Origin: Pseudopyrenochaeta lycopersici
Lineage: Eukaryota > Ascomycota > Dothideomycetes > Pleosporales > Pseudopyrenochaetaceae
Length of the DNA stretch: 31,359 bases
Assembly (NCBI GenBank): GCA_003313425.1
Contig: NHZP01000119.1
Location: 1 to 31,359, forward strand
Direction of reading: 5' to 3'
The notes beneath the pieces are model-generated. The model searched no databases, was not told the DNA's origin, and saw nothing but the letters and a program-made list of their open reading frames with translations. Positions 10,647-31,248 of the stretch are shown here, in pieces; within the stretch, counting starts at the first letter, position 1; every line of letters begins with the position of its first letter. The translations under genes and the position numbers were made by a program.

Positions 10647-10664
10647 CCTTTCACTAGAAAGTTG
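10647..10664 (+). other. Right half of origin hairpin at array left end
   Basis: CCTTTCACTAGAAAGTTG is present without its partner arm. The partner is replaced by TTAGGG repeats, as expected if a circle was opened in the hairpin loop and joined to a telomere. Confidence 0.75.
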
Positions 10665-10905
10665 TCAAGTGGTCGGCAGCCTCGCGCTGCCTACCCTGGA
10701 CACTTTACCTGTAAGCAGAGCCTGTGACTGGAGGGAACAACGAAGTGTTAGTCTTGAATAAGACTAGAGGCAATGCACTTACTAAGCATAGCAGAGCACG
10801 GGCGCGTGCTGATCATCGGATCGCTGCTTGCCCACTTTTTTTTTCAATCAGTTGTCTGATTGGTCTATGAATGTAGACAACATGGAATGGGCAGCCCTCT
10901 GCTAA

Positions 10906-10956
10906 CTAGGGACTAGTAACTCTTGGCGAAGACAGCGTGGATATCACGGTATATAA
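10906..10956 (+). promoter_or_regulatory. Unit 1 promoter: CTAGGGACTAG plus TATATAA
   Basis: CTAGGGACTAG at 10906-10916 and TCTTGGC just after it recur at the same place in most units. TATATAA at 10950-10956 is 59 bp before the start codon. Confidence 0.6.
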
Positions 10957-11014
10957 GCAGGGGAGGGCCTCCCCCGCCCATGGAAGTGATGTTTTTGGTT
11001 TACTCCAAATGACG

Positions 11015-11904
11015 ATGGCGTCGTCACCCAGAGTGCACATCTCTACGGAGCATGATGGAAGTGTTTCTAGCGTACAGCTGGAGCGTGTTTTGTCGGGGAT
11101 CGACTGCCTTGTAGAAGGAATTCGAGGGGAAGCTATTGCAGCGAGTGCATCTAGCTTACATTGTGTGCGGGCGCACATAGACAGTATGTTCTCTTTTTGT
11201 AGATGTTTTAGTAGTTGGGCGGAGGTCCCCCAACTAACGGAGTAGCAGAGTTGGTGGAGCAAGGCATCTCTTTTACGTTTCATCTAAAGCCGGATGGCGC
11301 CTTAGACGTATGGCTCACTCGGGAGAGCGGGCAGGCTCCTCGCCAGTGTTCTGCGCCCAATGTGTGTGGGTGCTATTTTGGAAATTGTGCGTCTGCCGAC
11401 AATGCCCTGACTGCATTTCTTGTCTGGAGAGCAGATGTTGTAGGAGAATACAATCAAGTGCGGAGCATGGTTGTGTTCGCGAAGCTCTGTTCCGATACAT
11501 TTGATGTATTCATCAAAAGCGTGCTGCCTTGTGTGTATACACGTGATAGGGATCTTGTGCAGGCGGAGGACGTGGATACGCTGTTTGGTTTGCTAGACGT
11601 AGGCGGATTTTCCAGTAGCGTGGGGTGCGGGTGCACATTGCGAGAGCATTGTCTGTCCTGTTTGTCGTTGCGTTTTAATCGGCAACGTTTCACGAGATGG
11701 GACATGTTCAGTGGGCCATTCCCATGTGGTCCAGACGGCTGGTTTCCTGGGTACAGTGATGCGGTTGGAATTGTACAACCGTTGGCGCTTGACTGGCTCA
11801 CATGTCCGCATATTGCGTTATCGTCTACTTTGTCTATTGACGGTGCACTTAGTAATTGTTCTGTAGATGAGTTACTATGGATGACTATATTTAGGAATGA
11901 TTGA
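11015..11904 (+). CDS. ESG-family protein, unit 1
   Basis: Exons are 11015-11183 and 11249-11904. The intron 11184-11248 (65 bp) begins GTATGT and has CTAAC near its AG. The splice falls after the first base of a codon, as in all family members, giving 274 residues. ATG is chosen by alignment with the leaders of other units (GACGATGGCGTCGTC is a version of the palindromic start context). Family landmarks are LVEQGISFTF at the start of exon 2, LTRESGQAPRQC, GCGCTLREHCLSC, GYSDAVG and DWLTC. The C-terminus is about 30 residues longer than in the paralogues. No known domain is recognised. Cys pairs suggest metal binding or disulfides. Confidence 0.75.
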
Positions 11905-12166
11905 GTTTTGTTGGATAGACCATGGAAGAATGGTTGATTTGTAGCATTAGTACGTGCGGTAGTAGAATTCTGTTGTTAAGGTATGCATGGCTGTGGTACG
12001 GCATAGTACTGTGCAATATTCTGGGAAGCGAAGGCTGACATTAGCGTAGGGTGGTTAATGGAACATCGAACCTTCAAAAAAATTGGCTAAGTCCAATTTC
12101 ACAGTGGCTGGAGGCCATGCAGAGTCACGTTGGCTGTGGCGCAGATCGTGCGCACAGACCCCGACT

Positions 12167-12220
12167 CAACTTTCTAGTGTGGCGAACCGCCTATATATGA
12201 TTCCTTTCACTAGAAAGTTG
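12167..12220. other. Origin-like hairpin, unit 1/2 junction
   Basis: CAACTTTCTAGTG (12167-12179) pairs perfectly with CACTAGAAAGTTG (12208-12220). The loop holds a small GGCGAACCGCC hairpin and TATATATGATT followed by CCTTT. No telomere repeats (n=0). Confidence 0.75.
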
Positions 12221-12462
12221 AGCAAGTGGTCGGCAGCCTTGCGCTGCCAGCCCTTGCAACTTTACAATTAAGCAGGGCCGACGAGTGGAACGAGTAGCGA
12301 AGCGTTAAACTAGAATTAGTTTAGGGGCGCTGCACTTAGTAAGCAACGCAACGCACGGACGTAGCGTGAGATCATCTGATCTGTGGGTTGCCCACTCTTT
12401 TTCAATCAATCATTTGATTGGTCTATGGCGATAGACACGGGGTATCGGCACCCCGGTGCTTA

Positions 12463-12508
12463 CTAGGGACTAGGTTCTCTTGGCGGTGCCATGGATAGAG
12501 GTATATAA
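12463..12508 (+). promoter_or_regulatory. Unit 2 promoter: CTAGGGACTAG plus TATATAA
   Basis: CTAGGGACTAGG lies upstream and TATATAA at 12502-12508 is 73 bp before the ATG. The leader contains CTACTTTGTGTAG, shared with units 8 and, loosely, 11. Confidence 0.6.
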
Positions 12509-12574
12509 TAACCACAGGGGAGCTGTGTGCACGGAGTGTTCTACTTTGTGTAGTTTCATCTTTTCTACACTGCG

Positions 12575-13368
12575 ATGGCATCGCACACTGGGCAAGAGGC
12601 TGAGGCGGGTTTCGCTGGCACCCGTGTTCTCCCATCGACGATAGATGGGTTGCAGGAAGGAAGCGCTTCCGCATTGTCCGTAGGGACACAAGCAGAGTTT
12701 AACGTAGTGAGGGATCACGTGCCTGGTAAGTGTCTCTTTATCTCGTTAGAGAGGTAAGTAGTTAGTAGGGGAGCCTATCTGACATGCGTACAGTGTTCAT
12801 GGGACGCGGTATTTCTCTCACGTTTAGTGTGGAGTTGTCGGGGAGACAATCATGTTGGATTACCAAAGAGAGTGGGCAGCCCCCTCGGCAGTGTGTGGAG
12901 CAACGACACAGAGCATGTCTGAAGTTCCATGAAGATCTCTGTTACGAGGGGGGCACCCGGCAGTCGCTCCTGGTCCTCAAGGTAGATGCACTCCAGGATG
13001 GGGTGGAGCGGAGCCAGGTTGTGTTTGCGGAGCTCTCAGTAGAGACATTCGATGTGCTTACACGGCGCATTCTACCTCTTATCACAACGTCAGAAGGCCA
13101 GAGGGCGGAGGCTTCTGTTGTTGACGAAGTGTTTTACGCGTTAGACGAAGGGGTTTTTAATACGCGGGTGGACTGCGCGTGTTTACTATATAAGAGGTGT
13201 GAGCCTTGCGCGTCGGTACGTTCCCAGTCACGGAGGTTTATTCGTTTAGCTCGATTTTACGGCGTATGGCAGCGGTCAAAGCTTTATTGGTTTATTGGGT
13301 TCAGCGATGCGGTAGGGACTATACAGCCGGAAGGCGAGGACTGGTTAACCTGCCGGCGTTCCTGCTGA
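12575..13368 (+). CDS. ESG-family protein, unit 2
   Basis: Exons are 12575-12725 and 12794-13368. The intron 12726-12793 starts GTAAGTG, has CTGAC, and ends CAG, giving 241 residues. The start codon sits in GCGATGGCATCGC, a short palindrome. Exon 1 encodes about 50 residues ending VVRDHVP. Exon 2 begins VFMGRGISLTF. Landmarks are WITKESGQPPRQC, FAELSVETFDVL, DCACLLYKRCEPC, GFSDAVG and DWLTC. Exon 1 is 151 bp, identical in length to units 3, 4 and 12. Function is unknown. The paralogue set suggests diversification of one role across several segments. Confidence 0.8.
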
Positions 13369-13745
13369 GCTGGTTGTAGTAGGTTTTTCTACTCTTTATT
13401 AATGTATATGGGGTATACTAAGGTAGTAGTAGTAGTTGTCTACGATACGATTACGATGCGTTACATTTTGCGTATCAGCTTAGTTTAGTTTAGTACGTTA
13501 TTATAACAGTACGTTGATACACTCAATTTTATCTTTATTTCGGTAGTTACTGATTTTGTAATGGTAAAGTCGTTATGACAATGAGAAGTCGTTGTGGGGC
13601 GGAGCTCCGTCATGAAGGGTGGCTACGCTTACGATGGAACATGGAATTTTCCAAAAAAAAAATGGCTAAGTCCAATTTTGTTGTGGCTGGAGGGCCATGC
13701 AGAGTCACCTGGGGGTGTGGCGCGGAGAGCGCACAGGCCAGAACT

Positions 13746-13798
13746 CAACTTTTCTAGTGTGGCGCAGCCTATATATGATTCCTTTCACTAGAAAGTTG
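13746..13798. other. Origin-like hairpin, unit 2/3 junction
   Basis: CAACTTTTCTAGTG (one extra T) pairs with CACTAGAAAGTTG (13786-13798). The loop carries GGCGCAGCC and TATATATGATT. No telomere repeats. Confidence 0.7.
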
Positions 13799-14038
13799 TC
13801 AAGTGGTCAGGAGCCTTGCGCTCCTTACCCTTGTCACTTTACACGTAAGCGGAGCCCATGACTGGAGGGAGTAACGAAGTGTTAAACCACTTGGGGTTTA
13901 GGGCCTCTGCACTTAGTAAGCAAGCCGAAGCACGGACGTAGCGCGAGATCATCTGATCTGTGGGTTGCCACATTTGTTAAATCTAAGATTTGATTGGTCT
14001 ATGGATATAGATTCATGGAAGGGGCACAACACTGCCTG

Positions 14039-14085
14039 CTATGTAGTAGTTTCTCTTGGCGGTGCCATAGATAGAGGTATATAAT
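14039..14085 (+). promoter_or_regulatory. Unit 3 promoter with TATATAA
   Basis: CTATGTAGTAG replaces CTAGGGACTAG, followed by TCTCTTGGC and TATATAA (14079-14085), 65 bp before the ATG. Unit 12 has the same variant. Confidence 0.55.
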
Positions 14086-14149
14086 AACAACAGAGGATCT
14101 GTGTTCATGGATATGTTTTACAATATGTAGTTTTTTTACTACACATGCG

Positions 14150-14941
14150 ATGGAGTCGCGCTCTGGACAGGGCACTATGGCGGGAGCCAGTGCTACCATA
14201 AGCTTCTTATCTATTGTGCGTCAGTTACAGGAAGGGAGTTCCTGTTCATTGTCTGTAGAGACAGCTGTGGAACTGCAACGCGTGAGAGATCACGTGCACA
14301 GTCAGTGTTTTTCTTTTCCCCTAGACACACGATAGGTTGGCCGATGCCCAACTAACGTCATCACAGTGCTGGTGGAGCAGCATGTCTCTCTCATGGCGTA
14401 TGTTGATGCGTCGGGAAGACAAGCTTGGTCGATTACCAAGGAGAGCGGACGCCTTCCCCGTCAATGTACCGAACAACAACGCATGGAGTGTTTTGAGGAT
14501 TACCAGGAACTCAGTGCCTCGGGGGGTACCCAGCAGGCGCTTCTTGTCCTCAAGGTGGATACGAGTTGGAATGGCGTGGTGCGGAGCCGTGTTATATTTG
14601 CGAAGCTCTCCCTAGAGACACTGGATGTTGTCGTACAGCGGGTACTGCCTAGAATTAGATTGCCTGGTGGGCAAGTTGTAGATGCTGTAAGCATGGAGGG
14701 ACTAATGCAGTTTTTAAGCATTGGGTACTATAGTACGCGGGTGGATTGCGCGTGTACTTTGTACAGAATCTGTCAGCCTTGTGTGTGTGCGCACCGGATT
14801 TCATCGAGGTTTCTTCGTTTGAATGGGTTTTCTGGGGTAAGGCCATTCGGGAAGTGTTACTGGTTTACTGGGATCAGTGACGCTGTGGGAGCAGTACTAC
14901 CGTCTGGCAGGAACTGGTTGAGTTGCACTCGTTCTTGGTAA
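14150..14941 (+). CDS. ESG-family protein, unit 3
   Basis: Exons are 14150-14300 and 14367-14941. The intron 14301-14366 (66 bp) begins GTCAGTG, contains CTAAC and ends CAG, giving 241 residues. The start lies in GCGATGGAGTCGCG. Landmarks are MLVEQHVSLMA after the splice, WSITKESGRLPRQC, FAKLSLETLDVVVQRVLP, DCACTLYRICQPC, GISDAVG and NWLSC. A basic patch (RISSRFLRL) follows the second Cys cluster, as in the paralogues. No transmembrane segment or signal peptide is visible, so a cytoplasmic or nuclear protein is likely. Role unknown. Confidence 0.8.
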
Positions 14942-15314
14942 GAATATCGTGATGGTAAGATTACCTAGTCCCTGTGTCCATGTAATGGTAATAATATATC
15001 TCAGTAGGAGATGGGTGCCTAGCATATTTATGGAGATAATTTGTTTGGGTATATTTGGTAATTGTAAGTAACGATTGTGTATCGAATTTTTTTATTTTTT
15101 GTTAAAATAAAGTCATTGTATACTGTATGAATCTGTGCTAACTACAGTAGTATGAGTAGTAAAGAATTTGTATGGCGGAGGTCAGTCAGTAAGGGTGGGA
15201 GCCCTCAGGATGGAACACCATCTCTCAAAAATTGGCTATGTCCAATTTTGTTGTGGCTGGAGGGCACGTTGGGTCAGCTGGGTGTGGCGCGGATTTCGCG
15301 CACAGACCCTCCCT

Positions 15315-15368
15315 CAACTTTCTAGTGTGGCGTTTTGCCTATATATGATTCCTTTCACTAGAAAGTTG
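15315..15368. other. Origin-like hairpin, unit 3/4 junction
   Basis: Perfect 13-bp arms. The loop contains GGCGTTTTGCC (same as unit 12/13) and TATATATGATT. No telomere repeats. Confidence 0.75.
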
Positions 15369-15605
15369 TCAAGTGGTCGAGAGCCTTGCGCTCGGGACCA
15401 CGACGGCTTTACTCTAAGCTTTGCCCGCGACTGGAGGGAGTACCGAAGGGTTAGGCTCTTTAGAGGCTAGAGGCAAGAGCCCTGGTAAGTAACACGAAGC
15501 ACGGACTGTGCGGGTCATCTGATCTCAGGTTACCCACATTTTATTTAATCAGGCTTCTGATTGGACTATGAATATAGAGTCATGGAATGGGCTGCCCTCT
15601 GCCTG

Positions 15606-15655
15606 CTAGGGACTAGTGTGTCTTGGCAGAGATAGCATGGACATGTCTATATAAG
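15606..15655 (+). promoter_or_regulatory. Unit 4 promoter: CTAGGGACTAG plus TATATAA
   Basis: CTAGGGACTAG is at 15606-15616 and TATATAA at 15649-15655, 76 bp before the ATG. Confidence 0.6.
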
Positions 15656-15730
15656 AACAACAGAGGATCTGTTTTCACGGATGTGTCCTACATTATGTAG
15701 TGTTTTCTTTTGTTCTACTGCTATATTGCG

Positions 15731-16524
15731 ATGGAGTCGCGTGTCGGGCAGGGTGCTGATGTGGGGACCACTAGCACATCCACCTTTCTATCTGCAATAG
15801 ATAGGATACAGGAAGGAAGTTCCTGTACATTGTCTGTAGAGACGCCCATGGAGTTTGAAGGCGTGAGAGATCACGTGCCCAGTCAGTGTCTTGCCTTTTC
15901 CCTAGACACGGAAGAAGTTGGGGGAGGGCCCCGACTAACATCATCACAGAGTTTGTGGAGTATGGGATGTCCCTTACTGTCTACGTAGGTCTTTCGCGTA
16001 GGCGATCTTGGTGGATTACCAAAGAGAGTGGACGCTTTCCTGCCGAGTGTGTGGAACAACACCACATGGAGTGTCTAGAAGGTCACAAGGAAGGTTGTGT
16101 TTCGGGAGCCGCACAGCAGTCGCTCCTGGTTCTTAAGGTGGATGCACCGGCCCATGGGCGTGTATGGAGTTTCGTTGTTTTTGCTCAGCTCTCAGTAGTG
16201 GCACTGGATGTGCTGGTGGAGCGCGTTATCCCTCTTCTTGCATTGCCGGAGGGGCAGTTGGCAAATGCCCTATTTGAGAACAGATTGTTCATTATGTTGA
16301 ACCATGGGTGGTACAGTACGTGCGTGGACTGCGCCTGTACGCTGCAGAGAAGGTGTGAGCCTTGTGGGTTTGTAAGCCATACTTCGCGGAGGTTCCTTTG
16401 GATCAGTAGATTTGATAATCTATTCTTATGTACAGGGTGTAACTGGTGGAGCGGTGTTACCAATGCAGTTGGAGTAGTACAGCCGCATGGTGTTGACTGG
16501 CTGACTTGTCCAAGTAGGATGTAG
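15731..16524 (+). CDS. ESG-family protein, unit 4
   Basis: Exons are 15731-15881 and 15950-16524. The intron 15882-15949 (68 bp) begins GTCAGTG, has CTAAC and ends CAG, giving 241 residues. Start in GCGATGGAGTCGCG. Exon 1 (MESRVGQGADVGTTS...) closely resembles that of unit 3. Landmarks are FVEYGMSLTV, WITKESGRFPAEC, FAQLSVVALDVLVERVIP, DCACTLQRRCEPC, GVTNAVG (variant of SDAVG) and DWLTC. The conserved block VVDxA/VLKVD in the middle is kept. Unknown function. Confidence 0.8.
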
Positions 16525-16912
16525 TTTATGTGGCTCATGGAGTGGCAGTACTCTATTGTAATTAAAGAGGGGTGGTCCTTTATACCTATAGATATAGGTG
16601 TTGAGTCGATGTATACGAAGTTGTATAGCTTGGAATGGTAAGTACCTGTCTCATGGTATAGGTATTTTATTTCCTGTTTCTTTTTTTAAAAAAAAAAAAA
16701 AATCCGTATATATTGTAACACAAATTAATTATGTTGTACAGATTCTGCATAGTAGTAAGAACAATGAAGAAATTGTAGTGCGGAGCTCGGTCAGTAAGGG
16801 TGGGAGCCCTTCAGATGGAACATCAAACCTCTCGAAAAATGCGTAAGTCCATTTTTGCTGTGGCTGGAGGTCACGTTTTACCGGGGTGCTGAAAAATTTT
16901 TCAGCCACGACT

Positions 16913-16965
16913 CAACTTTTCTAGTGTGGCGCAGCCTATATATGATTCCTTTCACTAGAAAGTTG
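16913..16965. other. Origin-like hairpin, unit 4/5 junction
   Basis: CAACTTTTCTAGTG pairs with CACTAGAAAGTTG. The loop has GGCGCAGCC and TATATATGATT. No telomere repeats. Confidence 0.7.
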
Positions 16966-18525
16966 TCAAGTGGTCACCAGCCTCGTGCTGGAGACCCTGG
17001 ACACTTTACATCTAAGCTGTGGCCTCGAGTGGAACGAGAAGCGGACGCGTCAAGCTACTTGTAGTTTGGGGCCATTGCCCCCTGTAAGCCAACAGACGCA
17101 CGGACTGTGTGAGTCAGATGACGCTGGGTTGGCACGTGAGGAGCACCCCTGCCCTCACATCTACTAGATGTTCATAGCTATGGACACAACGGAGTGGGCG
17201 CATTATGGAATAATAGTCTTGGCGTAGGCAAAGGGTAGTGTCTCTATGCCCTTTTCTTTCCGTGTGTATACTGCGGGTACATGTGGAGCATGTTATGTAT
17301 GGTGACTTTGTGTGGAGCACAATTGTACGGTAGTATCTTTTCATCAACTGCGTGAGCCTCTTTTGGCGGGCAGCGATCCGCCTCTGATTCCCATGGAGTG
17401 GGGGTTCAATGATAAGTGCTCGGGCGTGGCTGATGTAGCCCTGCTTGCGGAGCAGGCAAATGGTATGTATTTGTTGCGTGCATGTGCACTGTATTTGTCA
17501 GGGCTGACTTTCTGTTGCAGCAATGGGTATGCTGCTGTTTGGTGCCAGTCCGGGTGGGCTGTTTTCCACGGTGTGGTCTCTAGTAGGGGACACAGTGTTT
17601 GCATCTATGGTTCGAGGAAACGCTCGAACCCCGCTGCTTGTATCCGCGGATGGCGGTGTGTGTTGTACATCTCCTTCTGGAAGGTATGAGATTGTGTTGT
17701 CACGCTACGGGGGTAGTCGTAGGGAAGCAGTGGAACATCTTCTTCTTGAGTTGGAGCGTATGTTTTCGGAGAAACACAAGGGTACCTTGATTAGGGCTTC
17801 CCTAACGATGTCTGAGAATTCTGACGGCTGGATATCGGCTGGACATGGTTAATGTTGTGTAGTATTGTTTGGTATCTATTGAGATACTATCTTTGTTGCA
17901 GTAGAGCTATGCTGGAGGCATTGGGACGGCGTCTTAACAGGTTGTGTTTATTGAAGAAGGACTTTAGTTAATACTATCGTATTGCCAGTGTACCTACGCA
18001 ACAGTACACTGCTCTCGGTAGTATGGAGGTCCAGCTGTACGTGTACGACCTTACTCAAGTAAGTGGTAGAACCCTGAATAAGCTGCTTTTATCTTGAATC
18101 GACGTAGAAGAGCGTTATTATCGTAATCGAACGCTCAAGTTGTTGACCAGTGTAGGGACTCGGTATGAACATGATGTATGTTTTTTTTGTACTCTTAGTA
18201 TTGTGTATATCATTCTTATAAGTGTTGCTTATATGCTAGAAGTGTCTTTTTATGTTTTTTAAAGTAAACATTTTATAGTGTGTAGCTTTTAACTTGTTGA
18301 TATTTCGTGGCATCGTAATCTTTGATGGCGTTGGAGGTTGTTGTTTTAGTAAGGGTGTGAGCCCTTCAGATGGAACACCGTCTTCTGAAGAAAAAAAGCG
18401 TAAGTCCATTTTTGCTGTGGCTGACGGCCATGCTGAGTCAGGATGCTGTGGCTCGAGAGAGCACACATGTGGCGCAGATTGTGCGCACAGGCCTCTCCGA
18501 CAACTTTCTTGTGCTATATATGATT
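16948..18525 (+). mobile_element. Array unit 5 (small unknown gene)
   Basis: 1578 bp. The first 213 bp match unit 7 with one mismatch, and about 140 bp match unit 10. No TATATAA is found in front of its gene. The stretch 17853-18290 has no clear gene, although a spliced extra exon near 17910-17970 (reading ALGRRLNRLCLLKKD) is possible. Confidence 0.85.
17393..17852 (+). CDS. Unknown small protein, unit 5
   Basis: Exons are 17393-17462 and 17521-17852. The intron 17463-17520 (58 bp) begins GTATGT, has CTGAC and ends TTGCAG, giving 133 residues. As in the ESG genes, the splice falls after base 1 of a codon. Exon 1 is MEWGFNDKCSGVADVALLAE. Exon 2 begins MGMLLFGASPGGLFSTVWSL and ends with a helical EAVEHLLLELERMFSEKHK and a polar tail. 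No domain is recognised. Upstream in-frame codons back to 17306 lack an ATG, so 17393 is the first possible start in this frame unless another exon exists. Confidence 0.55.
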
Positions 18526-18543
18526 CCTTTCACTAGAAAGTTG
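18501..18543. other. Origin-like hairpin, unit 5/6 junction
   Basis: CAACTTTCTTGTG pairs with CACTAGAAAGTTG with one mismatch. The short loop is CTATATATGATT plus CCTTT, without the GGCG..GCC minihairpin. Confidence 0.7.
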
Positions 18544-18782
18544 TCAAGTGGTCGAGAGCCTTGCGCTCGGGACCACGACGGCTTTACATCTAAGCAGGGC
18601 CCGCGAGTGGAACGAGTAGCGGAGGGTTAGGCTTTTTAAAGACTAGGGGTGCTGCCCCCTGTAAGCAAAGCAGAGCACGGACGTGGCGTGTCAGATGACG
18701 CTGCTTTGCCCACTCTTTTTCGGAATTTTATTCTGATTGGTCTATGAATGTAGACAACATGGAATGGGCTTGTCCTTACTCA

Positions 18783-18830
18783 CTAGGGACTAGGTGGTCT
18801 TGGCAAGACAGTATGGGCATGCCTATATAT
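18783..18830 (+). promoter_or_regulatory. Unit 6 promoter: CTAGGGACTAG plus TATATAT
   Basis: CTAGGGACTAG is at 18783-18793 and TATATAT at 18824-18830. Confidence 0.55.
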
Positions 18831-18963
18831 CAGAGGGGAAGGCCCTCCCTCTCATGGATATGGTTTTTTAGGACGTTTTCTTAAGGTGGACGCCGTTAGA
18901 GGTACTCTAGCTTCAGCGAGGATCGTTGATTGTTTGCTTTGCCTTCTCCATAGGAAGGGCACT

Positions 18964-19730
18964 ATGGCGGGTCCCATTGCTGCTACGTCTCACAAGGTGA
19001 GGTACGGGTACGCACAGTACGGAGTATTTGATATTCCAGGTGAGGCTGGATTTCGAGGGCTTGCTGAAAAGCATATAAATGGGAATTGTTACCAATGGTT
19101 TGGGTCATGTGACACTATGGATCGTGGTGAGCGATGCTTGCTGGTAAGGTTTGCGGAAGCGCTTTCCCAGGATGATGCCGCGCAGGTGATGGGCCTTGGA
19201 CTTCCTGCAGACTATGTGTGGTTAATGGAGTTTCCACCTAGAATTCTGTTCCCTGCCGAATGGGTTCTTCAGCGGCAGGCGAGAGTCGTTCGAGGATCTC
19301 TGAACAGGGCGGATGCTATGTTTGGCGCACCGTTTACTCTACAGGCTAAGCCGAGTTTTGATATAGAAACGGTTATCGAGTACGAAGAGTATGATTATAA
19401 TACTATTGTATTGTGCATGGCTATGCTAATGTTGTTGTCTATAGGAATGGGAGTATCCGTACTGTAGTTCGGCAGGTTACAGTAAATTGTTCTGCTGTGA
19501 TGTGGAGCAAGTTGGCGAAGTTCCATCTACACGCTATTAAGTTAGAGGATGGACATTACGTGTTATTTTTTGTAGGAGATGAAGGGCGGGAGCTATTGAA
19601 AGTTTTTTGGAAGTTGTGGGATGATGTGTGTGCATCACCGTTACTTTTAGGTAAGGTGTGTTATCCGTCTTTGCCCTTGGACGTGGGTTTGCGTGGAGTG
19701 GAACGTAAGTTTGTTAGTTTACAACTCTAG
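18964..19730 (+). CDS. Unknown 236-residue protein, unit 6
   Basis: Exons are 18964-19388 and 19445-19730. The intron 19389-19444 (56 bp) starts GTATGA, contains GCTAATG and ends CTATAG. The join restores the frame (EYEE then NGSIRTVVRQ). The ATG lies in GGGCACTATGGCGGG (18957-18971), a 15-base match to unit 3 exon 1 (14170-14184), which hints at recombination between segments. A CATAG acceptor just upstream (18953) suggests a 5' leader intron. The protein is mixed alpha/beta in look, with no Cys clusters and no known motif. It ends LRGVERKFVSLQL. As a single-copy gene of this size it is one candidate for a structural protein, but nothing proves that. Confidence 0.65.
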
Positions 19731-22988: not shown

Positions 22989-23257
22989 GTACAATGTAAC
23001 CATTTTTTGTATTACGTTTACATTGCGTACAGGTTTGGTGGAACTGTTCATTTGGTAACGAACGTTATTCCATTGTAGTTGTTTATTGCGTGGTGCTTCG
23101 TCATGAAGGGTGTGGGCGCCCTTGGGATGGAACATCAAATCTTCAAAAAAAAATGCGTAAGTCCATTTTCCCTGTGGCTGACAGTCACGTTGGCTGTGGC
23201 TCGGGAGAGCGCACATGGGTTGCTGTGGCGCAGATTGTGCGCGCACAGGCCACAACT

Positions 23258-23318
23258 CAACTTTCTTGTGCTATATATGATTAGGGTTAGGGTTAGGGTT
23301 CCTTTCACTAGAAAGTTG
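23258..23318. other. Origin-like hairpin split by three telomere repeats, unit 8/9
   Basis: The left arm CAACTTTCTTGTG and TATATATGAT end at 23281. Then come 19 nt (23282-23300) equal to the usual single T plus three TTAGGG units. The right arm starts at CCTTT, 23301. Confidence 0.8.
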
Positions 23319-23740
23319 TCAATGTGGTCGGCAGCCTTGTGCTGCCTGACCCATGTAACTTTACCCTAAGCTTTGCCCATGACTGGAGGGAGTACCGAAG
23401 GGTTAGGCTCCTTGGAGACTAGGGGCAAAAGCCATTAGTAAGCAAAGCAGAGCACGGACGTGAGGGGTTGGTCGAGCGATCAGCGAGTTGTATGACGGAG
23501 GAGGAGTTGTCTGGGTACCACGACATCTCGGAGAGTACTCTCTTTGCGCCTTTTTATCCAATTCTTTTCATGATCAAATCCTGTAAGGTTTGTCATATTT
23601 AGCCGCAGCGGAGGCGCGCTCTTCTTAACGGGAAGTGTCGTGCTATTTTTGCACGCCCTCAGGGACTGCGAGGTTGGCTTTCCATTTCGCGCGGACGCGA
23701 TATTTTTCACGGTGGAGTCGTTTCGGTTGTCTAGCGGAGC

Positions 23741-24515
23741 ATGTTTAGCAAAGGATTTGCTCAGTGGGACTGTTATACTGTGCAGCGGGCAGTGCACGCA
23801 CTTGAAGAGAGTCGCGTAGCTCCTTTCTCGGGGAGCGAGGCTGAGATCGTATCTCTAGTGGAGAACATCCAAGGTTGGTTCGACTCATACGTGTGCTACG
23901 TTTGTGGCACACAGGCCATGCTTGGTCCTGTGTTTTGCTAACGGTAAGGTAGTGTTTCAAGACGCTGCCGTTTCTGTCACGTGCGAGGTTTCGCAGCAAT
24001 GTGGTGTAAAGTGGTGGTTTACAAAGGAGAGCGGTAGGCTCCCGCCGTTGTGTGATGATTGTATATCATTTTTACGGAGTGTGCCAGGCGGGTTGATGCC
24101 CCGGCGACGACGGGCTGCATTGGTTGCGAAGTTTATGCGCGGGCCGCAGGAGTGCGAGGTGTTGGTTGCGCCCTTGGTTTCCTCTGCCGTTGAGTGGCTT
24201 TACGCGGAGATTGCGCCTATGGTGTTGGTACATGTTCGACATGACACTTGGGGTTCTGTGCAGCAGATCTGCTCATGGCTTGTGTCCCCCGTTCCCTGCC
24301 CTTGTGTAGGTGCTGGGACTCGCTGTGTTGAGCAGCAACTGTGGGACTTATGTGGCTGGAGGCTTGTTCGACTCCCTGAGCTCAATCCTGCTCCTTTGCC
24401 AACGTGGTGGGCAGGTGTATCAGATGCTGTAGGTGATCGCCAGCTCGGATCGCGCCCTTGGATGCGTTGCCCCTGCGATCGCTCTGATGTAAGGTGTTTT
24501 GTTGTTATAGAGTAG
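23741..24515 (+). CDS. Divergent ESG-family protein, unit 9
   Basis: Exons are 23741-23873 and 23953-24515. The intron 23874-23952 (79 bp) starts GTTGGT, has GCTAAC and ends GTAG, in the family phase, giving 231 residues. Exon 1 (MFSKGFAQWDCYTVQRAVHA...) does not resemble the others in sequence. Exon 2 keeps the landmarks AAVSVTCEVS, WFTKESGRLPPLC, then CPC and a shortened Cys cluster, GVSDAVG and a final CPC. The DCACxL block is altered (SPVPCPCVGAGTRC). This is the most distant of the seven paralogues. Confidence 0.65.
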
Positions 24516-24740
24516 TTTTTGAGTGTTCTACTTATAGCTCGGAATGTGCGTGTTAGGGTGTAATCGTTGGTTATTGTAGTACTGCACTTTTCGTTATATA
24601 TTTATTGTGTATGCGATATTGTCCATGTGATATTGTGGGAACTATTTTTATTTTTAATTGTTGGTTAGTTATAATACTACCTAATCGTGTTGTGCGGTTT
24701 TGTAGAGGAGCGATAACAATAAAGGATTTTCGGTGCGGAG

Positions 24741-24839
24741 CGTTGTTGTTAAGGGTGCGAACCCTAGGATGTTTCGACAAAAAAATTTGGCGAAGGACAA
24801 ATATGGGTGGCGGTGCGGGTCGCGCACAGGCCCCTCTGA
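24741..24839 (+). other. Conserved structured 3' region (unit 9 as example)
   Basis: Before each origin hairpin come paired elements. AGGGTGCGAACCCT here corresponds to AAGGGTGGGAGCCCTT in unit 4. ATTTG/CAAAT (24785-24802) corresponds to AAAATTGG/CCAATTTT in unit 3. In other units the next element is TGTGGCGCGGATTTCGCGCACA or TGTGGCGCAGATTGTGCGCACA, again with compensating changes. Confidence 0.55.
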
Positions 24840-24898
24840 CAACTTTTCTAGTGTGGCGCAGCCTATATATGATTAGGGTTCCTTTCACTAGAAAGTTG
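24840..24898. other. Origin-like hairpin split by one telomere repeat, unit 9/10
   Basis: TATATATGAT ends at 24873, then 7 nt (24874-24880: the T plus one TTAGGG), then CCTTT at 24881. Arms CAACTTTTCTAGTG and CACTAGAAAGTTG. Confidence 0.8.
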
Positions 24899-26489
24899 TC
24901 AAGTGGTCACCAGCCTCGTGCTGGAGACCCTGGACACTTTACATCTAAGCTGTGGCCTCGAGTGGAACGAGAAGCGGACGCGTCAAGCTACTTGTAGTTT
25001 GGGGCCATTGCCCCCTGTAAGTAACACGCAGCACGGACTGTGTGAGTCAGATGACGCTGGGTTACACGTGGGTGGCACCCTTGGCCCCACACTCTATCAG
25101 ATTCTTCGTCTGATTGGGCTATGGCGATAACCTCATGGAATGGGCACGTCTTTGCTCGCTAGGGACTAACGCTTCTTGGCGTTGCCATGTCTTTGGGACG
25201 ACGAGTAGTTAAGAGAGGGGTGTGCCCTCTGCCTCTTCTCTCTACCACGGAGGTGGTGTCTTTGTGTAGCAATAGTAGCAGGATGCGGTTCTTCACATTT
25301 GTTACAGGTGATCGCCGAAGGAGGCTTCCAGGCGATATTTGGTTGATGGTGATGGAGTCACTCGTCGCGGGGTCGACGTTCTCAGAGCTGGTGGCCAGCC
25401 TGTACCGGATGGACTTTTTTAAAGAATGTTTCTTTAGACTGTGGGTGCGGATGCAGCCCGAGGGAGTATGCCTGGAGCCCTTTTCAGGCACCGATATAGA
25501 ATTGGATATGGTGATGGATCACGTGCACGGCGAGTGCTTTCTTTTCTCTCTATATAAGTTGAGAGACTCCCTACTAACTGGGACAGTTCTTGTGGAGCAA
25601 GGTGTTTCAGTGACACTTCACGTTAGGATGAGTAGGCGACGAACATGGTGGCTTACCAGGGAGAGTGGACTTACCCCGTGCGAGTGTATTGAGCAAGCGG
25701 ATGCTTCTTCTGTGTCATCCTACTTGGTAGTTGTTGATGAACGCGCGCTCCCCCCGAGCGTCTCTCCTCGCTGTTTACGTATTTCCTCATGGATTGCGAT
25801 GTTAACTGTGGATACATTGTATGTGTTACGGCATCGGATAATTCCCGGGGCGTCCTATCATCGTTATGCGCGTTACTTGGGAGATATGGGGTATTGGAAC
25901 CTGTTGGAGCGTGGTTTCTTTAGTAGCAGGCGTGACTGCGCGTGTGGCCTGGAAGGTTATCTTTTACCGTGTGGTGAGTGCGAGGCGGTCCCAAAACGGC
26001 TCCGGTTGTTTGGTGTGTTGCCACCGTACTGGGGTCATCATGATGCATTGGAAGAGGTTGAACCACAGTCATGGTTTCATGGCGTGACAGACGCCAGGGG
26101 TTGTATTACAGAGGACTGTACGCCGTGGTTGCAGTGTGCATGTGCGGAAGGAACTGGTTGTAGTACGTAGTGCCTTATTTTATTGTAAGGGACAGAGGTT
26201 TTGTTTATTTAGTGGGCGAATGCCTGATTGATGGAATGGTTGTATAGAGTGTGTAAACAGATTCAGTATATCGAGTTGTGGAACAACAAAAATCAAAAAA
26301 ACGGTAAGTCCAAAAAAAAAACATTGAAATTTTTTTGGCTAAGTCCAATTGTGTGTGGCTGGAAGACACGCAGAGTCAGTGTGGCTCGGGAGAGCACACA
26401 TGGGTTGGGTGTGGCGCGGATTTCGCGCACAGACCCTCCCTCAACTTTCTAGTGTGGCGAACCGCCTATATATGATTAGGGTTAGGGTT
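24881..26489 (+). mobile_element. Array unit 10 (ESG-family gene)
   Basis: 1597 bp plus two TTAGGG repeats. The first 140 bp match units 5 and 7. The normal upstream TATATAA is missing; the only TATATAA lies inside the predicted intron (25550). Confidence 0.85.
25352..26170 (+). CDS. ESG-family protein, unit 10 (GC-AG or retained intron)
   Basis: By alignment the exons are 25352-25529 and 25587-26170, giving 253 residues. The predicted donor is GCGAGT instead of GT. The 57-bp interval 25530-25586 contains CTAAC and ends ACAG but is also in frame and stop-free, so an unspliced 272-residue form is possible. Start ATGGAGTCACTCG resembles the family start context. Landmarks are VLVEQGVSVTLHV, WLTRESGLTPCEC, DCACGLEGYLLPC, GVTDARG (variant) and PWLQCAC. 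Upstream in-frame sequence is open to 25187, so a longer N-terminus cannot be excluded. Confidence 0.65.
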   Translation: MESLVAGSTFSELVASLYRMDFFKECFFRLWVRMQPEGVCLEPFSGTDIELDMVMDHVHGECFLFSLYKLRDSLLTGTVLVEQGVSVTLHVRMSRRRTWWLTRESGLTPCECIEQADASSVSSYLVVVDERALPPSVSPRCLRISSWIAMLTVDTLYVLRHRIIPGASYHRYARYLGDMGYWNLLERGFFSSRRDCACGLEGYLLPCGECEAVPKRLRLFGVLPPYWGHHDALEEVEPQSWFHGVTDARGCITEDCTPWLQCACAEGTGCST

Positions 26490-26507
26490 CCTTTCACTAG
26501 AAAGTTG
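26442..26507. other. Origin-like hairpin split by two telomere repeats, unit 10/11
   Basis: Perfect arms. TATATATGAT ends at 26476, then 13 nt (26477-26489: the T plus two TTAGGG), then CCTTT at 26490. The loop has GGCGAACCGCC, as in unit 1/2. Confidence 0.8.
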
Positions 26508-26766
26508 TCAAGTGGTCACCAGCCTTGCGCTGGAGACCCTCGACACTTTACATCTAAGCAGGGCCGACGAGTGGAACGAGTAGCGGAGCGTTAAACTCTT
26601 TAGAGTGTAGGGCCGCTGCACCCTGTAAGCAAAGCAGAGCACGGACTGTGCGGGTCACTTGACCTTGGTTTGCACGTGGGAGACACACCTGGCCCCACCA
26701 CCCTCTCAATCAGCTTTCTGATTGGGCTATGGCGATAGACACAGGGAGTGAGCAGCGCTCTGCTAA

Positions 26767-26818
26767 CTAGGGATTAGGTTCTCTTGGCGTAGCGCAAGAC
26801 AGATATCGAGAGATATAA
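26767..26818 (+). promoter_or_regulatory. Unit 11 promoter: CTAGGGATTAG plus ATATAA
   Basis: A one-base variant of the CTAGGGACTAG motif (26767-26777) and a weaker TATA (26813-26818) lie at the same spacing as in other units. Confidence 0.5.
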
Positions 26819-26979
26819 GAGGGGGAAGGCTCTCTCCCCGCTCACGGAGTGTTCTCTATTATGTGTAGTTTCGTCTCTTTTTACATTGCGACTGCATTGT
26901 ATAGATCTCGCGTGGTATGCGTGCAGAGGATCTGTGTACTGGTAGTAACTTTGGCTGACTCTATGCGTAGCGTTGTGTT

Positions 26980-27543
26980 ATGATTGTGCCTCGGTGGGAT
27001 CGTTGGCGCATACATTCAGGAGTTCCGGTTACGGGATGCCCAGGAGGGGTTCGCTTTGTGAAGCTGCGGTTTAAACAGGTGTTTTCCCCGAGCGGAGCGG
27101 AGGTATCTTCGATTCTTCGCAAGTCTTTGCCGGTAGGGACACGTTGGCATGCAGCTTGCCTTGGTGCTGGTGCACTTGACGCGGATGCCTCGCCTGTTGG
27201 TGATCCTGTGTGCAGTGTGTTGTATGGTGGTATCCGGGGGCCAGCATGCCGTGCGCCCTACTGCCAATTCGTCTGGGTAGACGTGTTCATTGATTTTGGT
27301 GGATGCAGTAGTCGCGAAGCGCTTGATCTGGGAAAACATGTTACGCTTTGGGGACGGAGGCCTTGCGTGAAGGCGTGTTCTGGAGGGTACGGTGATGCCA
27401 ATGCAGAGCGTTGGGGTACTACAGGAGGTGCGCCCTTTGGTTACGCGTTTGACCAAGAGTTGTCTATGTTTTCGGCGCCATTGGAGTTCTGGCGGTGTGG
27501 CACTCCTCTTTTATTGGACGCGGAGGAGGAGGAGTTACGGTAA
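26980..27543 (+). CDS. Unknown 187-residue protein, unit 11
   Basis: Single ORF from ATG 26980. It is rich in Gly, Cys, Trp and Arg, with segments GVRFVKLRFKQVF, VWVDVFIDFGG and an acidic end (LLLDAEEEELR). The alternation of hydrophobic strands could suit a beta-rich structural protein, but no family is recognised. The leader between the lost ATG context (about 26886) and 26980 contains GTATGCGTGCAG and a CTGAC...GTAG acceptor, so a leader intron ending at about 26970 is possible. Single copy in the array. Confidence 0.65.
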   Translation: MIVPRWDRWRIHSGVPVTGCPGGVRFVKLRFKQVFSPSGAEVSSILRKSLPVGTRWHAACLGAGALDADASPVGDPVCSVLYGGIRGPACRAPYCQFVWVDVFIDFGGCSSREALDLGKHVTLWGRRPCVKACSGGYGDANAERWGTTGGAPFGYAFDQELSMFSAPLEFWRCGTPLLLDAEEEELR

Positions 27544-28042
27544 TAGTCTTATTTGCGCATAATGAAGGCGTTTGGGTATAGGTACTGTGCTTAAGGTATA
27601 TGTCAGTTGTCTTTGTTATACCATGTGGTATAGATTTCGTACGCTATGAGGTTGTGCTCTGTTAATTTTGCGTTGTGTTCAGAGCATGTTCATTGGATGC
27701 ATAGGGTCTCAATAGTGGGACACGGCAGGCAGGATGCGTCCTCTGTAGTATTGGTCAGTGTCTATTCCATTGCTATGAGGAGTAGTGTTGACTTGAATTG
27801 ACTAGGATGTGTGTGTTGTGTGCGCACAATTTTTTTCCCGGGCATATATGCCTGTGGGAGCAGTGTGGGCAGGATTGATGGTAAGCGGAGCAGAAAATTG
27901 ACTAAGTGCTCGAGGGTGGGAGCCCTTGTAGATGGAACATCAAATCTGAAGAAAAAATGCGTAAGTCCATTTTTGTTGTGGCTGGAGGGCACGGCGAGCC
28001 ACGTTGGGGGGTGTGGCGCGGAGAGCGCACAGACCCTGCCCT

Positions 28043-28114
28043 CAACTTTCTTGTGTATATATGATTAGGGTTAGGGTTAGGGTTAGGGTTAGGGTTCCTT
28101 TCACTAGAAAGTTG
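28043..28114. other. Origin-like hairpin split by five telomere repeats, unit 11/12
   Basis: TATATATGAT ends at 28065, then 31 nt (28066-28096: the T plus five TTAGGG), then CCTTT at 28097. The left arm is CAACTTTCTTGTG. Confidence 0.8.
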
Positions 28115-28372
28115 TCAAGTGGTCGGGAGCCTTGTGCTCCTGGCTACGACGGCTTTACCGTTAAGCAGGGCACGCCTAGGGACTAGGCAGCGGAGCGTTA
28201 AACTACGAGTAGTTTAGGGCCTCTGCCCCCTGTAAGTAACACAACGCACGGGCAGTGCGGTCATCTGACCTTGTGTTGCACGTGGGAGACACACCTGGCC
28301 CCACCACCCTCTCAATCGGGTTTCTGATTGGTCTATGGATGTAGACGCATGGAGTGGGCACCCTGTTGCGTA

Positions 28373-28420
28373 CTATGTAGTAGTTTCTCTTGGCGGTGCA
28401 CAAGGAAGAGATGTATATAA
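28373..28420 (+). promoter_or_regulatory. Unit 12 promoter with TATATAA
   Basis: The CTATGTAGTAG variant (as in unit 3), TCTCTTGGC, and TATATAA at 28414-28420, 56 bp before the ATG. Confidence 0.55.
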
Positions 28421-28475
28421 CTACAACAGCGTCTCTGCTGTTGGCACGGAGTGTGTTTTTTAAAACTTCATTGCG

Positions 28476-29252
28476 ATGGCATCGTATACCGGGCAGGGAA
28501 CTAGCCTGGTCAAGGCTGTTGGTGATGGTGATTTACTGTCACTCGACCAGCTTCGGCCGGGTCAGAGGGGCTCCCCCTTCCCTGGGACAGCGGCAAACAT
28601 TCAAGAGGTGCGGAGGCACATTCCTAGTAAGTATGTACTTCTTTCGTTAGGTTGGGCTTCCCCAACTAATAGAATAATAGAGCTGGTGGAGCAAGCTGTG
28701 TCCCTTACCTTCTGTATGGAATTGTCGGGAGAACAGTCTTGGTGGCTCACCAAAGAAAGCGGATGCCTTCCTATCCAATGCCTTTCTCATAAGCGCAGAT
28801 TATGTCCGGAAGACTACAAGGAACGTTATGCGCAGAGATTTATTCGACAGTCGCTCCTTGTGCTCAAGGTAGACGCACGCTTGTATGGGGTGGAGCGGAG
28901 CTTTGTTGCGTTTGCGGAGCTCTCAATAGAGGGACTTGATGTGCTTGTACAGCGCATTTTACCTCTTCTTATACTACCTGGAGGGCAGAGGGCGGAGGCT
29001 TCTGTTGTTGACGAAGTGCTTCAGTTGTTAGACAATGGATGGTATAGCACCAGCGTGGACTGCGCGTGTACGCTGCACAGGGCATGTGAGCCTTGTGGGT
29101 TTTTATCTTATAAATCTCAAAGGTTTGTTCGTCTAGACCGATTCCATTGTGTATGGCCTTTTGGAGAGTCCGTGTGGTTTGCTGGACGCAGCGATGCGGT
29201 AGGAGAAGTCCATCCCTTGCGGTGTGAGTGGCTTTCCTGTTCCAGTCTGTAG
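28476..29252 (+). CDS. ESG-family protein, unit 12
   Basis: Exons are 28476-28626 (151 bp, the family length) and 28681-29252, giving 240 residues. The intron 28627-28680 begins GTAAGT, has CTAAT and ends ATAG. It is 54 bp, in frame and free of stops, so an unspliced 258-residue form would also be open. Start in GCGATGGCATCG. Landmarks are LVEQAVSLTF, WLTKESGCLPIQC, FAELSIEGLDVLVQRILPLL, DCACTLHRACEPC, GRSDAVG and EWLSC. Very close to unit 2 in the region RAEASVVDEV, pointing to recent exchange or duplication. Confidence 0.8.
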   Translation: MASYTGQGTSLVKAVGDGDLLSLDQLRPGQRGSPFPGTAANIQEVRRHIPSKYVLLSLGWASPTNRIIELVEQAVSLTFCMELSGEQSWWLTKESGCLPIQCLSHKRRLCPEDYKERYAQRFIRQSLLVLKVDARLYGVERSFVAFAELSIEGLDVLVQRILPLLILPGGQRAEASVVDEVLQLLDNGWYSTSVDCACTLHRACEPCGFLSYKSQRFVRLDRFHCVWPFGESVWFAGRSDAVGEVHPLRCEWLSCSSL

Positions 29253-29643
29253 GTGGCATCATGTTTATCTAAGGTACGGAGTATACTATGGTATTGTTAA
29301 CAATGGTGTGATCTTGTAATCCACGTGTGTTTTTAGTAATCATAGGTGCAGGAATCCGCATCGGTGTGTAGTAGTAGTGTAGCGTCCTAGGTATGTTTGT
29401 TATACTAGCAGTGTAATTATTTTTATCTCTTCGAAAAGAGTATTAATGTAGTAATGGCAGGGCCCTTACAACAAATCAGAATTTGTGGTGCGCAGCTTGG
29501 TCAGTAAGGGTGTGGGAGCCCTCAGGATGGAACACCATCTCTCAGAAAAAAATAAAAAATTGGCTAAGTCCAATTTTGTTGTGGCTGGAGGCGATCCCAG
29601 GTCACATGGAGTGTGGCGCATGGAGGGGGCACGGGCCCCGACT

Positions 29644-29697
29644 CAACTTTCTAGTGTGGCGTTTTGCCTATATATGATTCCTTTCACTAGAAAGTTG
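29644..29697. other. Origin-like hairpin, unit 12/13 junction
   Basis: Perfect 13-bp arms. The loop has GGCGTTTTGCC and TATATATGATT. No telomere repeats. Confidence 0.75.
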
Positions 29698-29960
29698 TCA
29701 AGTGGTCGAGGAGCCCCGTGCTCCTTGACCCCTGACACTTTACCTGTAAGCAGAGCCCGCGATTGGAGATCGCAACGGAGTGTTAGTCTTTTTAAAGACT
29801 AGGGGCGCTGCACTTAGTAACCACAGCAAAGCACGGACGTGTGGTCATCTGACATGGTGTGGCACGCTTTGATCTTCGATCTAATTGGTCTATGAACATA
29901 GACACGGGGGGCGGGCAGGACACTGCCAACTAGGGACTAGTCACTCCTGGTAGTGCTGGC
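29680..29960 (+). other. Conserved structured 5' region (unit 13 as example)
   Basis: Most units share the same chain of short hairpins with changing bases but kept pairing. Hairpin 1: GGAGC/GCTCC here (29710, 29720), GGCAGC/GCTGCC in unit 1 (10675, 10686), CCAGC/GCTGG in unit 5 (16977, 16987). Hairpin 2: TAGTCTTT/AAAGACTA here (29784, 29794), TAAACTA/TAGTTTA in unit 2 (12306, 12317), CAAGCTAC/GTAGTTTG in unit 5 (17051, 17061). Hairpin 3: GATCATCTGATC (12370), GTCAGATGAC (17113), GGTCACTTGACC (26653). Further helices follow (AATCAG/CTGATT, GTCTA/TAGAC). It lies before the TATA box, so it is a DNA element or a separate transcript. Confidence 0.6.
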
Positions 29961-30002
29961 TGTTTGGATACACCGGCTGAGATTTGTCTGTGGAGCGGAC
30001 AC

Positions 30003-30791
30003 ATGGTAGTGTTAGAGAGTGGGCAGCGGAGCGGTCTTCATGGACTGTACAGTTCTAGTCATATTGTACGCCGTGGTCGGCGTGTCCTCTGCGTCTGCAC
30101 AGTGTGCATTCCGAGTAGGGTTGTTGTCAGGATGCGACAATTGGAGACCCGGCTTCAGAGTGGGCGTATGCGTTACTCGACGTCTGTTCCCACCGCCGCG
30201 CTTAGCGAGGTTGAGTTTGCTCAACTACTGGGAGGTGTTCTGAATAGTATCGGTGGGCGTACGGTGCGCTGGGAAGCGCCATCATGGTTGGTAGCCGCAG
30301 TGAGACCCGTGGGTTCTCATGGAGTGTCCCCGATAGGTTCCTGTACGGAGTATGAAGTGTTGGTGTCGTTTGCGCAGCGGACTCGGGTAGCGCATTCGTC
30401 TCGACGTCTCCATCTGCAGCGGAGCGAGTGGAATGTTACTATTGAGCGGGTACCGTGTCATGGCAAGGTGCGGAAGGAGTTTTTCCGCGATGAACTCGAG
30501 CGATGGAGTCGTGGAGCTCCCTTTTCTGCCGGTTGTTTTGGCACCGGACTCGAGGCTGTCGGCGTAAACCAGTCTGGCTATGAAGTGGCCGTTCGTGGGG
30601 GATTTCGACGTTACGATAGTGGCGGGTACACGTTGTTGAGCACGAGGAGCGCTGTTGATGATAAGAAACGTCAAGAGTATCGGCAGATGGTATCTTTTAC
30701 TGCGGAGCTAGAGGCCATTTTTTTAGAGATGTGTCGTCTTACACGTCTTCTCGAGGAAGTTAATTGTTATGTTGATGGTTTATGCTTGTAA
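30003..30791 (+). CDS. Unknown protein of up to 262 residues, unit 13
   Basis: Open frame from ATG 30003. A second in-frame ATG at 30132 begins MRQLETRLQSGRMRYS and would give 219 residues. Either could be right, and the lack of a TATATAA makes an upstream exon possible. The protein is basic (many Arg, e.g. RRLHLQRSEWNVTIERVPCHG), with a central SPIGSCTEYEVLVSFAQRTR and a helical, Leu-rich end (ELEAIFLEMCRLTRLLEEV). High Arg content and single copy make it a candidate nucleic-acid-binding or capsid protein, without any motif to prove it. Confidence 0.6.
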   Translation: MVVLESGQRSGLHGLYSSSHIVRRGRRVLCVCTVCIPSRVVVRMRQLETRLQSGRMRYSTSVPTAALSEVEFAQLLGGVLNSIGGRTVRWEAPSWLVAAVRPVGSHGVSPIGSCTEYEVLVSFAQRTRVAHSSRRLHLQRSEWNVTIERVPCHGKVRKEFFRDELERWSRGAPFSAGCFGTGLEAVGVNQSGYEVAVRGGFRRYDSGGYTLLSTRSAVDDKKRQEYRQMVSFTAELEAIFLEMCRLTRLLEEVNCYVDGLCL

Positions 30792-31223
30792 CAGTAGATG
30801 TTACTGGTAAACTAGCCTTAGTAGAAGCGTTAGGGTATGTTACTGAATAGGCTTGTTTTTCATAGCTTTACGCAGTATGGGTTAATTTTGGTAGGTAGAG
30901 CCAGTTTTATGTTTTTTTGCGGACGCCATATTATCGGTAGAGGTACTATTTGAGTTGTATACTACTCCTAGCCAAAGAAATAGAGTAGTATTATGCACAG
31001 TTTTAGATTGGTTTGTATTATTCACTAATTATTGTATGTAGGTTTTGTACAGAAGCCAAGAAAAAAGAATTTGTATGGCGGAGCTGTCGTCATGAAGGGT
31101 GTGGGCGCCCTGTTAATGGAACATCAAACCTCTCGAAAAATGCGTAAGTCCATTTTGTTGTGGCTGGAGGGCCAGGCAGAGTCACGTTAGCTGTGGCGCG
31201 GATTTCGCGCACAGACCCTCCCT

Positions 31224-31248
31224 CAACTTTCGAGTGCTATATATGATT
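31224..31248 (+). other. Left half of origin hairpin at array right end
   Basis: CAACTTTCGAGTG and CTATATATGATT are present and the CCTTTCACTAG arm is replaced by telomere. This is the complement of the half hairpin at 10647. Confidence 0.75.

Follow-up and report, generated by a model that had tools for sequence, protein, structure and literature searches.

An array of near-equal units with Rep-type boundaries at Pseudopyrenochaeta lycopersici telomeres and its probable relation to multipartite CRESS-DNA viruses

Described segmented and telomeric elements compared with the P. lycopersici array

Among the closest described counterparts of the element reported here, an array of thirteen units at the end of contig NHZP01000119.1 of the fungus Pseudopyrenochaeta lycopersici (assembly GCA_003313425.1; the whole stretch of 31,359 nucleotides is referred to as the window), are multisegmented genomoviruses and nanoviruses. 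Botrytis cinerea ssDNA virus 1, a single-stranded DNA (ssDNA) virus, is described as having four segments of ~1.7 kb that share common regions, a nonanucleotide that sits in a stem-loop and is cut after ...TT, and a putative intron in its Rep gene (PMC10731770), while Fusarium graminearum gemytripvirus 1 is described as having three segments. These genomoviruses share with the units similar-sized segments, common regions and a stem-loop nonanucleotide, but they are free viruses of three or four segments, whereas the P. lycopersici element has an estimated ~100 types in telomere arrays and carries Rad52 and ESG-family genes. Nanoviruses are described as having one protein per segment, equal-length segments, one Rep for all, and a protein, Clink, that binds SKP1 (PMC11064520, PMC10653810). 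The likeness to the present element lies in single-protein segments of one length replicated by one Rep; the difference is that nanoviruses have eight segments of ~1 kb, in plants, against ~100 estimated types. To our knowledge, nanoviruses do not occur at telomeres, and the 69 sampled types of 1,536–1,609 bp do not fit Nanoviridae (six to eight segments of ~1 kb).

MoTeRs of Pyricularia are described as sitting in telomere repeats with short tracts between copies, like the arrays here (PMC8381367). They are retrotransposons of two kinds, whereas the arrays here have Rep-type boundaries and many gene types; no reverse transcriptase match to Pfam was found in 28 open reading frames (ORFs) scanned (8 from units in the window and 20 from other units), which argues against MoTeR identity. 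Human herpesviruses 6A and 6B and Marek's disease virus are described as keeping viral DNA at telomeres; these have large genomes with their own telomeric repeats, in contrast to the small-segment arrays here. Helitrons encode a two-tyrosine RepHel and insert between A and T, whereas the Rep described below has a single Tyr motif and the telomere joins lie at TT^CC, so by these features the element is not a Helitron. Finally, ssDNA-virus Rep genes have been described in fungal chromosomes, including 42 in Tuber that form a transposon-like repeat; these are Rep genes or Rep-bearing repeats only, and that report mentions neither 'telomer' nor 'tandem' in its text (Liu 2011; PMC3198968). Our literature searches returned no comparable element.

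Unit starts, telomere junctions and the probable Rep cut site

The thirteen units lie at the right end of the window on the + strand (Table 1); each opens with the exact sequence CCTTTCACTAGAAAGTTG and closes with ...TATATGATT, and the start-to-start distance, spacers included, is 1,556–1,609 bp. Four joins hold internal tracts of TTAGGG repeats, and the final unit runs directly into the terminal telomere. The exact starts, the 17-base stub beneath unit 1 and the terminal telomere confirm the proposal of an earlier, sequence-only reading that thirteen near-equal, same-direction units lie between an old and the present telomere. The gene content named in that reading is likewise borne out, with an HUH Rep in one unit (unit 7; Pfam REP_ORF2-G2P, E 1.4e-4, under the curated cut-off), a Rad52-like protein in one (unit 8; PF04098, E 7e-28), and a paralogous family, ESG, in seven of the thirteen (units 1, 2, 3, 4, 9, 10 and 12).

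In the genome of 62,731,430 bases (62.7 Mb) in 188 contigs (the window's contig is C119, others are named C plus a number), there are 893 exact copies of the unit start and 0 matches to a reversed-pattern control, indicating that the start is not a chance pattern. Immediately before the 893 starts stands ATGATT (852 times), AGGGTT (40 times) or the variant AGGGGTT (once, on C4). Thus, all 893 exact starts are preceded by a unit end (852) or by a telomere tract ending in TT (41), and none was found outside an array. At 1,579 bp per unit, the extrapolated element content is ~1.4 Mb, or 2.2% of the genome.

The 41 telomere joins comprise 20 internal joins and 21 first junctions, where host DNA lies inward of the array (C119 plus 8 plus 12), so the window array is one among at least 21, with ~14 different host flanks as read by eye. 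All nine arrays followed from a host junction (C4, C5, C10, C18, both ends of C23, C50, C54 and C119) reach the contig end, five of them ending in telomere repeats; arrays on the + strand run right and arrays on the − strand run left. We further sampled ~228 kb of array ends and host flanks; with the 13 units of the window, this gave 134 unit pieces, of which 123 are complete. In the sampled arrays, 14 of 14 non-terminal telomere tracts of at least two repeats lead into CCTTTCAC. The stubs under first units have 1–3 repeats and the 20 internal spacers 1–5, far shorter than the eight contig-end telomeres, which measure at least 71–143 bases; joining therefore appears to take place on very short telomeres. 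Ends can also be broken. At C65:246300-246700, a unit cut at CCTATATA is followed by telomere repeats and then by a fresh unit, suggestive of break, healing and re-addition at one place, while the arrays on C5 and C54 finish in truncated units with telomere attached.

The unit boundary, TATGATT^CC, falls within the loop of a stem-loop predicted to fold, as DNA, at about −8 to −13 kcal/mol, and complete units begin and end there. Reps of circular Rep-encoding single-stranded (CRESS) DNA viruses are described as cutting the loop nonanucleotide between bases 7 and 8, remaining on the 5′ end and rejoining it to a 3′ end, the geminivirus loop being TAATATTAC in most genera and TAAGATTCC in Eragrovirus and Becurtovirus (PMC10653810); the Botrytis virus loop is given as TACTCTT^CA in three of four segments (PMC10731770). 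TATGATT^CC is one base off the TAAGATT^CC of the two geminivirus genera and has its edge at position 7/8, from which we infer that the unit edge is a Rep cut.

A full Rep is encoded outside the window by another unit type, T31 (C23 and C92). The protein has 392 residues and contains HYH, Tyr-x-x-Lys with a single Tyr, and GPSRLGKTEW, which we take to be the HUH nuclease and superfamily 3 (SF3) helicase motifs. At least nine intact, protein-identical copies are present. Its Pfam matches, Gemini_AL1_M (8.7e-4) and REP_ORF2-G2P (1.5e-3), are both under the curated cut-offs. Relatives at E 1e-3 or better number 14 of 2,343 candidates and are up to 57% identical, among them Pyrenophora tritici-repentis (52%, on a contig of 1,600 bp, the length of one unit), P. 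seminiperda (57%, on a 241,788-bp contig) and Colletotrichum sojae (40%); for 6 of the 14, two of these from named fungal genomes, the longest contig is 1,368–1,600 bp. The Rep of unit 7 is a shorter paralogue without the helicase half, 46% identical to the T31 Rep across the nuclease part and present in at least three copies. Given a Rep with HUH nuclease and SF3 helicase (the T31 ORF aligned with its 14 relatives) and an origin nonanucleotide in a predicted stem-loop with a deduced cut at 7/8, the element would belong to Cressdnaviricota by Rep and origin, and, as a putative virus, it appears to work like a multipartite CRESS-DNA virus with segments accumulating at telomeres.

Unit types, their order and their genes

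The 123 complete units are 1,536–1,609 bp long (mean 1,578.6, standard deviation 10.7) and fall into 69 types at 95% identity, 35 of which have more than one copy. The Chao1 estimate of the number of types is 96. An alternative estimate of ~108 is obtained by dividing 893 by the mean genome-wide copy count of four genes (Rad52, 13; Rep, 9; capsid candidate, 8; short Rep, 3), all four counts being lower bounds. We estimate the total at about 100 types, of which the window's 13 would be a draw. Within a type, most copies match at 100% identity, whereas most type pairs gave no full-length alignment; the 20 alignments obtained lie at 65–72% (16), 85% (1) and 94% (3).

The order of types in the arrays is near random. 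Among 110 neighbour pairs, recurrent ordered pairs and identical neighbours are few, and the arrays are therefore not copies of one set. Specifically, five ordered pairs recur against 0.64 expected, a number reached in 0 of 2,000 shuffles. The block of units 8 and 9 recurs on C81 with the same 3-repeat spacer, and the pair of units 11 and 12 occurs with five and with no repeats in between. Compared with the first copy of the type, thirteen copies show differences: in six the substitutions lie towards the unit ends (in one case all 56 at positions 29–202, in another all 29 at 43–177), six have gaps only, and one has two internal substitutions; substitutions confined to the ends are what common-region exchange between segments would leave.

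The ESG family is present in ~40 of the 69 types. A profile of the seven window members matched 12 of 5,159 candidates, one of them from Zopfia rhizophila, and the longest contig is 1,021–1,529 bp for 9 of the 12. One of these matches, a metagenomic protein, is 57% identical to the ESG protein of unit 9 over 170 residues, whereas in the alignment that it heads the other window members reach just 21–27%; a particular segment, the unit 9 type, beyond the family alone, thus seems to be conserved elsewhere. The sequence-only reading had proposed searches of fungal genomes and viral metagenomes; Rep relatives were found in Pyrenophora and Colletotrichum and ESG relatives in Zopfia and a metagenome, and five scans of IMG/VR returned no relative.

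The Rad52 of unit 8 has at least 13 protein-identical copies in the genome. A likely host RAD52 at C12:1420608-1421119 is 45–48% identical to it in two stretches, and the element may have captured its gene from a fungus. Type T26 (C18 and C54) encodes a 398-residue protein with an N-terminal stretch of 120 residues more basic than that of any other of the 69 types, which makes it a candidate capsid protein; at least eight identical copies are present. Short pieces from the start of this gene, with stop codons in one frame, lie at C65:290951-291171 and C89:100072-100292, and may mark a segment type that is defective or arose by recombination. A second small family unites unit 13 with types T8 and T25 (E 5e-4 and 3e-8). 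A unit peptide at L022:7713-8111 has an F-box-like N-terminus (E 7.5e-4, under the cut-off), recalling the SKP1 binder Clink of nanoviruses. Most of the remaining unit proteins scanned had no match.

Table 1. Features of the telomeric array in the window
Feature	Position	Strand	Remarks
Older host telomere stub under unit 1, 17 bases (GGGTTAGGGTTAGGGTT)	10630..10646	+	Short stubs at all 21 first junctions
Unit 1	10647..12202	+	ESG-family gene, C-terminal exon ~11251-11904
Unit 2	12203..13780	+	ESG-family gene 12784-13368
Unit 3	13781..15350	+	ESG-family gene 14369-14941
Unit 4	15351..16947	+	ESG-family gene 15952-16524
Unit 5	16948..18525	+	ORFs including 17523-17852, that ORF without Pfam match at E 1
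Unit 6	18526..20111	+	ORF 18964-19467, without Pfam match at E 1
Unit 7	20112..21707	+	Rep paralogue with HUH nuclease motifs and no helicase, ORF 20479-21042
Unit 8	21708..23282	+	Rad52-like gene 22140-22988
Telomere spacer, 3 repeats	23283..23300	+	
Unit 9	23301..24874	+	ESG-family gene 23955-24515
Telomere spacer, 1 repeat	24875..24880	+	
Unit 10	24881..26477	+	ESG-family ORF 25187-26170
Telomere spacer, 2 repeats	26478..26489	+	
Unit 11	26490..28066	+	ORF 26980-27543, without Pfam match at E 1
Telomere spacer, 5 repeats	28067..28096	+	
Unit 12	28097..29679	+	ESG-family gene; ORF 28476-29252, apparently reading through an intron
Unit 13	29680..31248	+	ORF 30003-30791, second small paralogous family
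Present telomere, attached straight to the TATATATGATT end of unit 13	31249..31359	+	

The subtelomere inward of the stub (9001-10600) has 1.7% C, a TA/AT ratio of 2.0 and a (CA+TG)/(AC+GT) ratio of 0.06, unlike the array proper (1.06 and 1.08), and its composition resembles that left by repeat-induced point mutation, which that of the array does not. On the + strand of 9001-10600, C at 1.7% stands against G at 21%, a strand-asymmetric depletion not obviously obtained by repeat-induced point mutation on both strands alone. Further inward, at 6014-6920, a 165-bp unit in tandem inside an open frame encodes an Arg/Gly-rich repeat.

Origin of the arrays, alternatives and consequences

We propose, with a probability of roughly two in three, that each unit represents one segment of a hyper-multipartite CRESS-DNA virus, or of an element derived from such a virus, which Rep attached to a short telomere or to the preceding unit before telomerase healed the end. 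The segments would replicate as circles, with a common Rep acting in trans. Held on the 5′ CC end, Rep would join it to the ...TT-3′ of a near-exhausted telomere rather than re-closing the circle, the telomere tail GGGTT-3′ resembling its own GATT-3′ acceptor in the same TT-3′. Telomerase could then prime on the new GATT-3′ end and add AGGGTT, or another unit could be joined first; acting on TT-3′ ends, the two processes would give both kinds of junction observed, and repeated joining would build arrays that point outward. Subtelomeric exchange would copy blocks between ends as well. Rad52 may aid strand annealing in replication and, as the weakest inference of the model, the diversified ESG family may serve as host-interaction proteins.

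The sequence-only reading had seen a captured multipartite rolling-circle genome. The multipartite rolling-circle origin is well supported by the helicase-bearing CRESS-type Rep, a stem-loop common to the units in which the unit edge coincides with the usual cut position, the near-constant length of units with different genes, their near-random order, and the location of substitutions mostly at unit ends. In contrast, capture of a single 13-part genome does not agree with at least 21 arrays, 893 starts and ~100 estimated types.

Several observations weigh against the proposed origin. Every Rep-domain Pfam score is under its curated cut-off, two Rep copies are broken, one at the start of C99 and one at the start of C166, the IMG/VR scans found no relative, and the capsid candidate has no homologue in 5.77 billion proteins, the PDB or Pfam. 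The census of 893 covers the exact start only, and units with altered starts would escape it; no variant start was encountered in the sampled arrays. Unit starts alone are constant, three ends (C5, C54 and C65) being truncated and healed elsewhere. One host flank is common to several arrays, so fewer than 21 independent events underlie the 21 first junctions. Identical neighbours slightly exceed expectation (4 observed, 1.13 expected, p 0.03), the recurrent pairs and the copy of units 8 and 9 on C81 show that blocks spread by recombination too, and recombination within the shared unit ends could yield direct joins of different types.

These last points bear on host telomere recombination, in which a few units reached telomeres once and break-induced or telomere-attrition-induced replication has since copied arrays from one deprotected end to another. 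MoTeR arrays are described as amplifying in this way after telomerase loss, retaining short telomere tracts between copies (PMC8381367), and the recurring block, the excess of recurrent pairs and the shared host flank all fit. Such copying leaves unexplained why telomere-joined starts lie at a Rep-type cut site, why the order of 69 types is near random, and why units 11 and 12 are found with both five and no repeats between them. In place of joining by Rep, which it would give no present role, we consider it unlikely; it is compatible with joining by Rep, and host recombination very likely contributes to the spread of the arrays.

The confinement of all 893 exact starts to arrays and the empty capsid homology search would also suit a family of rolling-circle transposons that descends from viruses, targets telomeres and lacks a virion stage, moving only within the genome and inherited with the chromosomes; Rep-derived transposons are reported in Tuber (PMC3198968). 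Equal unit length suggests packaging, however, and many of the relatives come from contigs roughly as long as one segment, though short contigs are common anyway. We know of no transposon in which one Rep serves ~100 different passengers of constant length, and we regard this explanation as quite improbable.

Subtelomeres often house antigen- or effector-like gene families, and with one paralogous family in ~40 of 69 types the arrays might be a host-owned family of this kind, amplified in satellite style with a few captured viral genes. The shared stem-loop and Rep-type cut site, the constant length, the intact Rep, and the Rep and ESG relatives on short contigs elsewhere make this very unlikely. 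An assembly artefact is scarcely credible: many arrays are cut off at contig ends and only a minority of the small contigs were read, but the 21 host-side junctions have ~14 different flanks, and the nine arrays followed all reach a contig end, five in telomere repeats.

Returning to segments of a CRESS-DNA virus or virus-derived element, a stronger form is conceivable, in which a living virus of ~100 single-gene ssDNA segments overcomes the difficulty of a multipartite genome by storing its whole library as telomere arrays, with the 3′ tail of the telomere serving its Rep as acceptor and telomerase capping the product, and in which replication from the Rep cut site frees segments from the arrays again; we put this forward only tentatively, with more doubt than belief. 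If the proposed origin is true, the number of segments would be more than ten times the eight of nanoviruses and ~25 times that of the four-segment Botrytis virus. What holds the parts of such an element together would become a testable question, with storage on chromosome ends as the answer to be tested, and the junctions would suggest a route by which an HUH Rep may add DNA to a telomere, with healing by telomerase thereafter.

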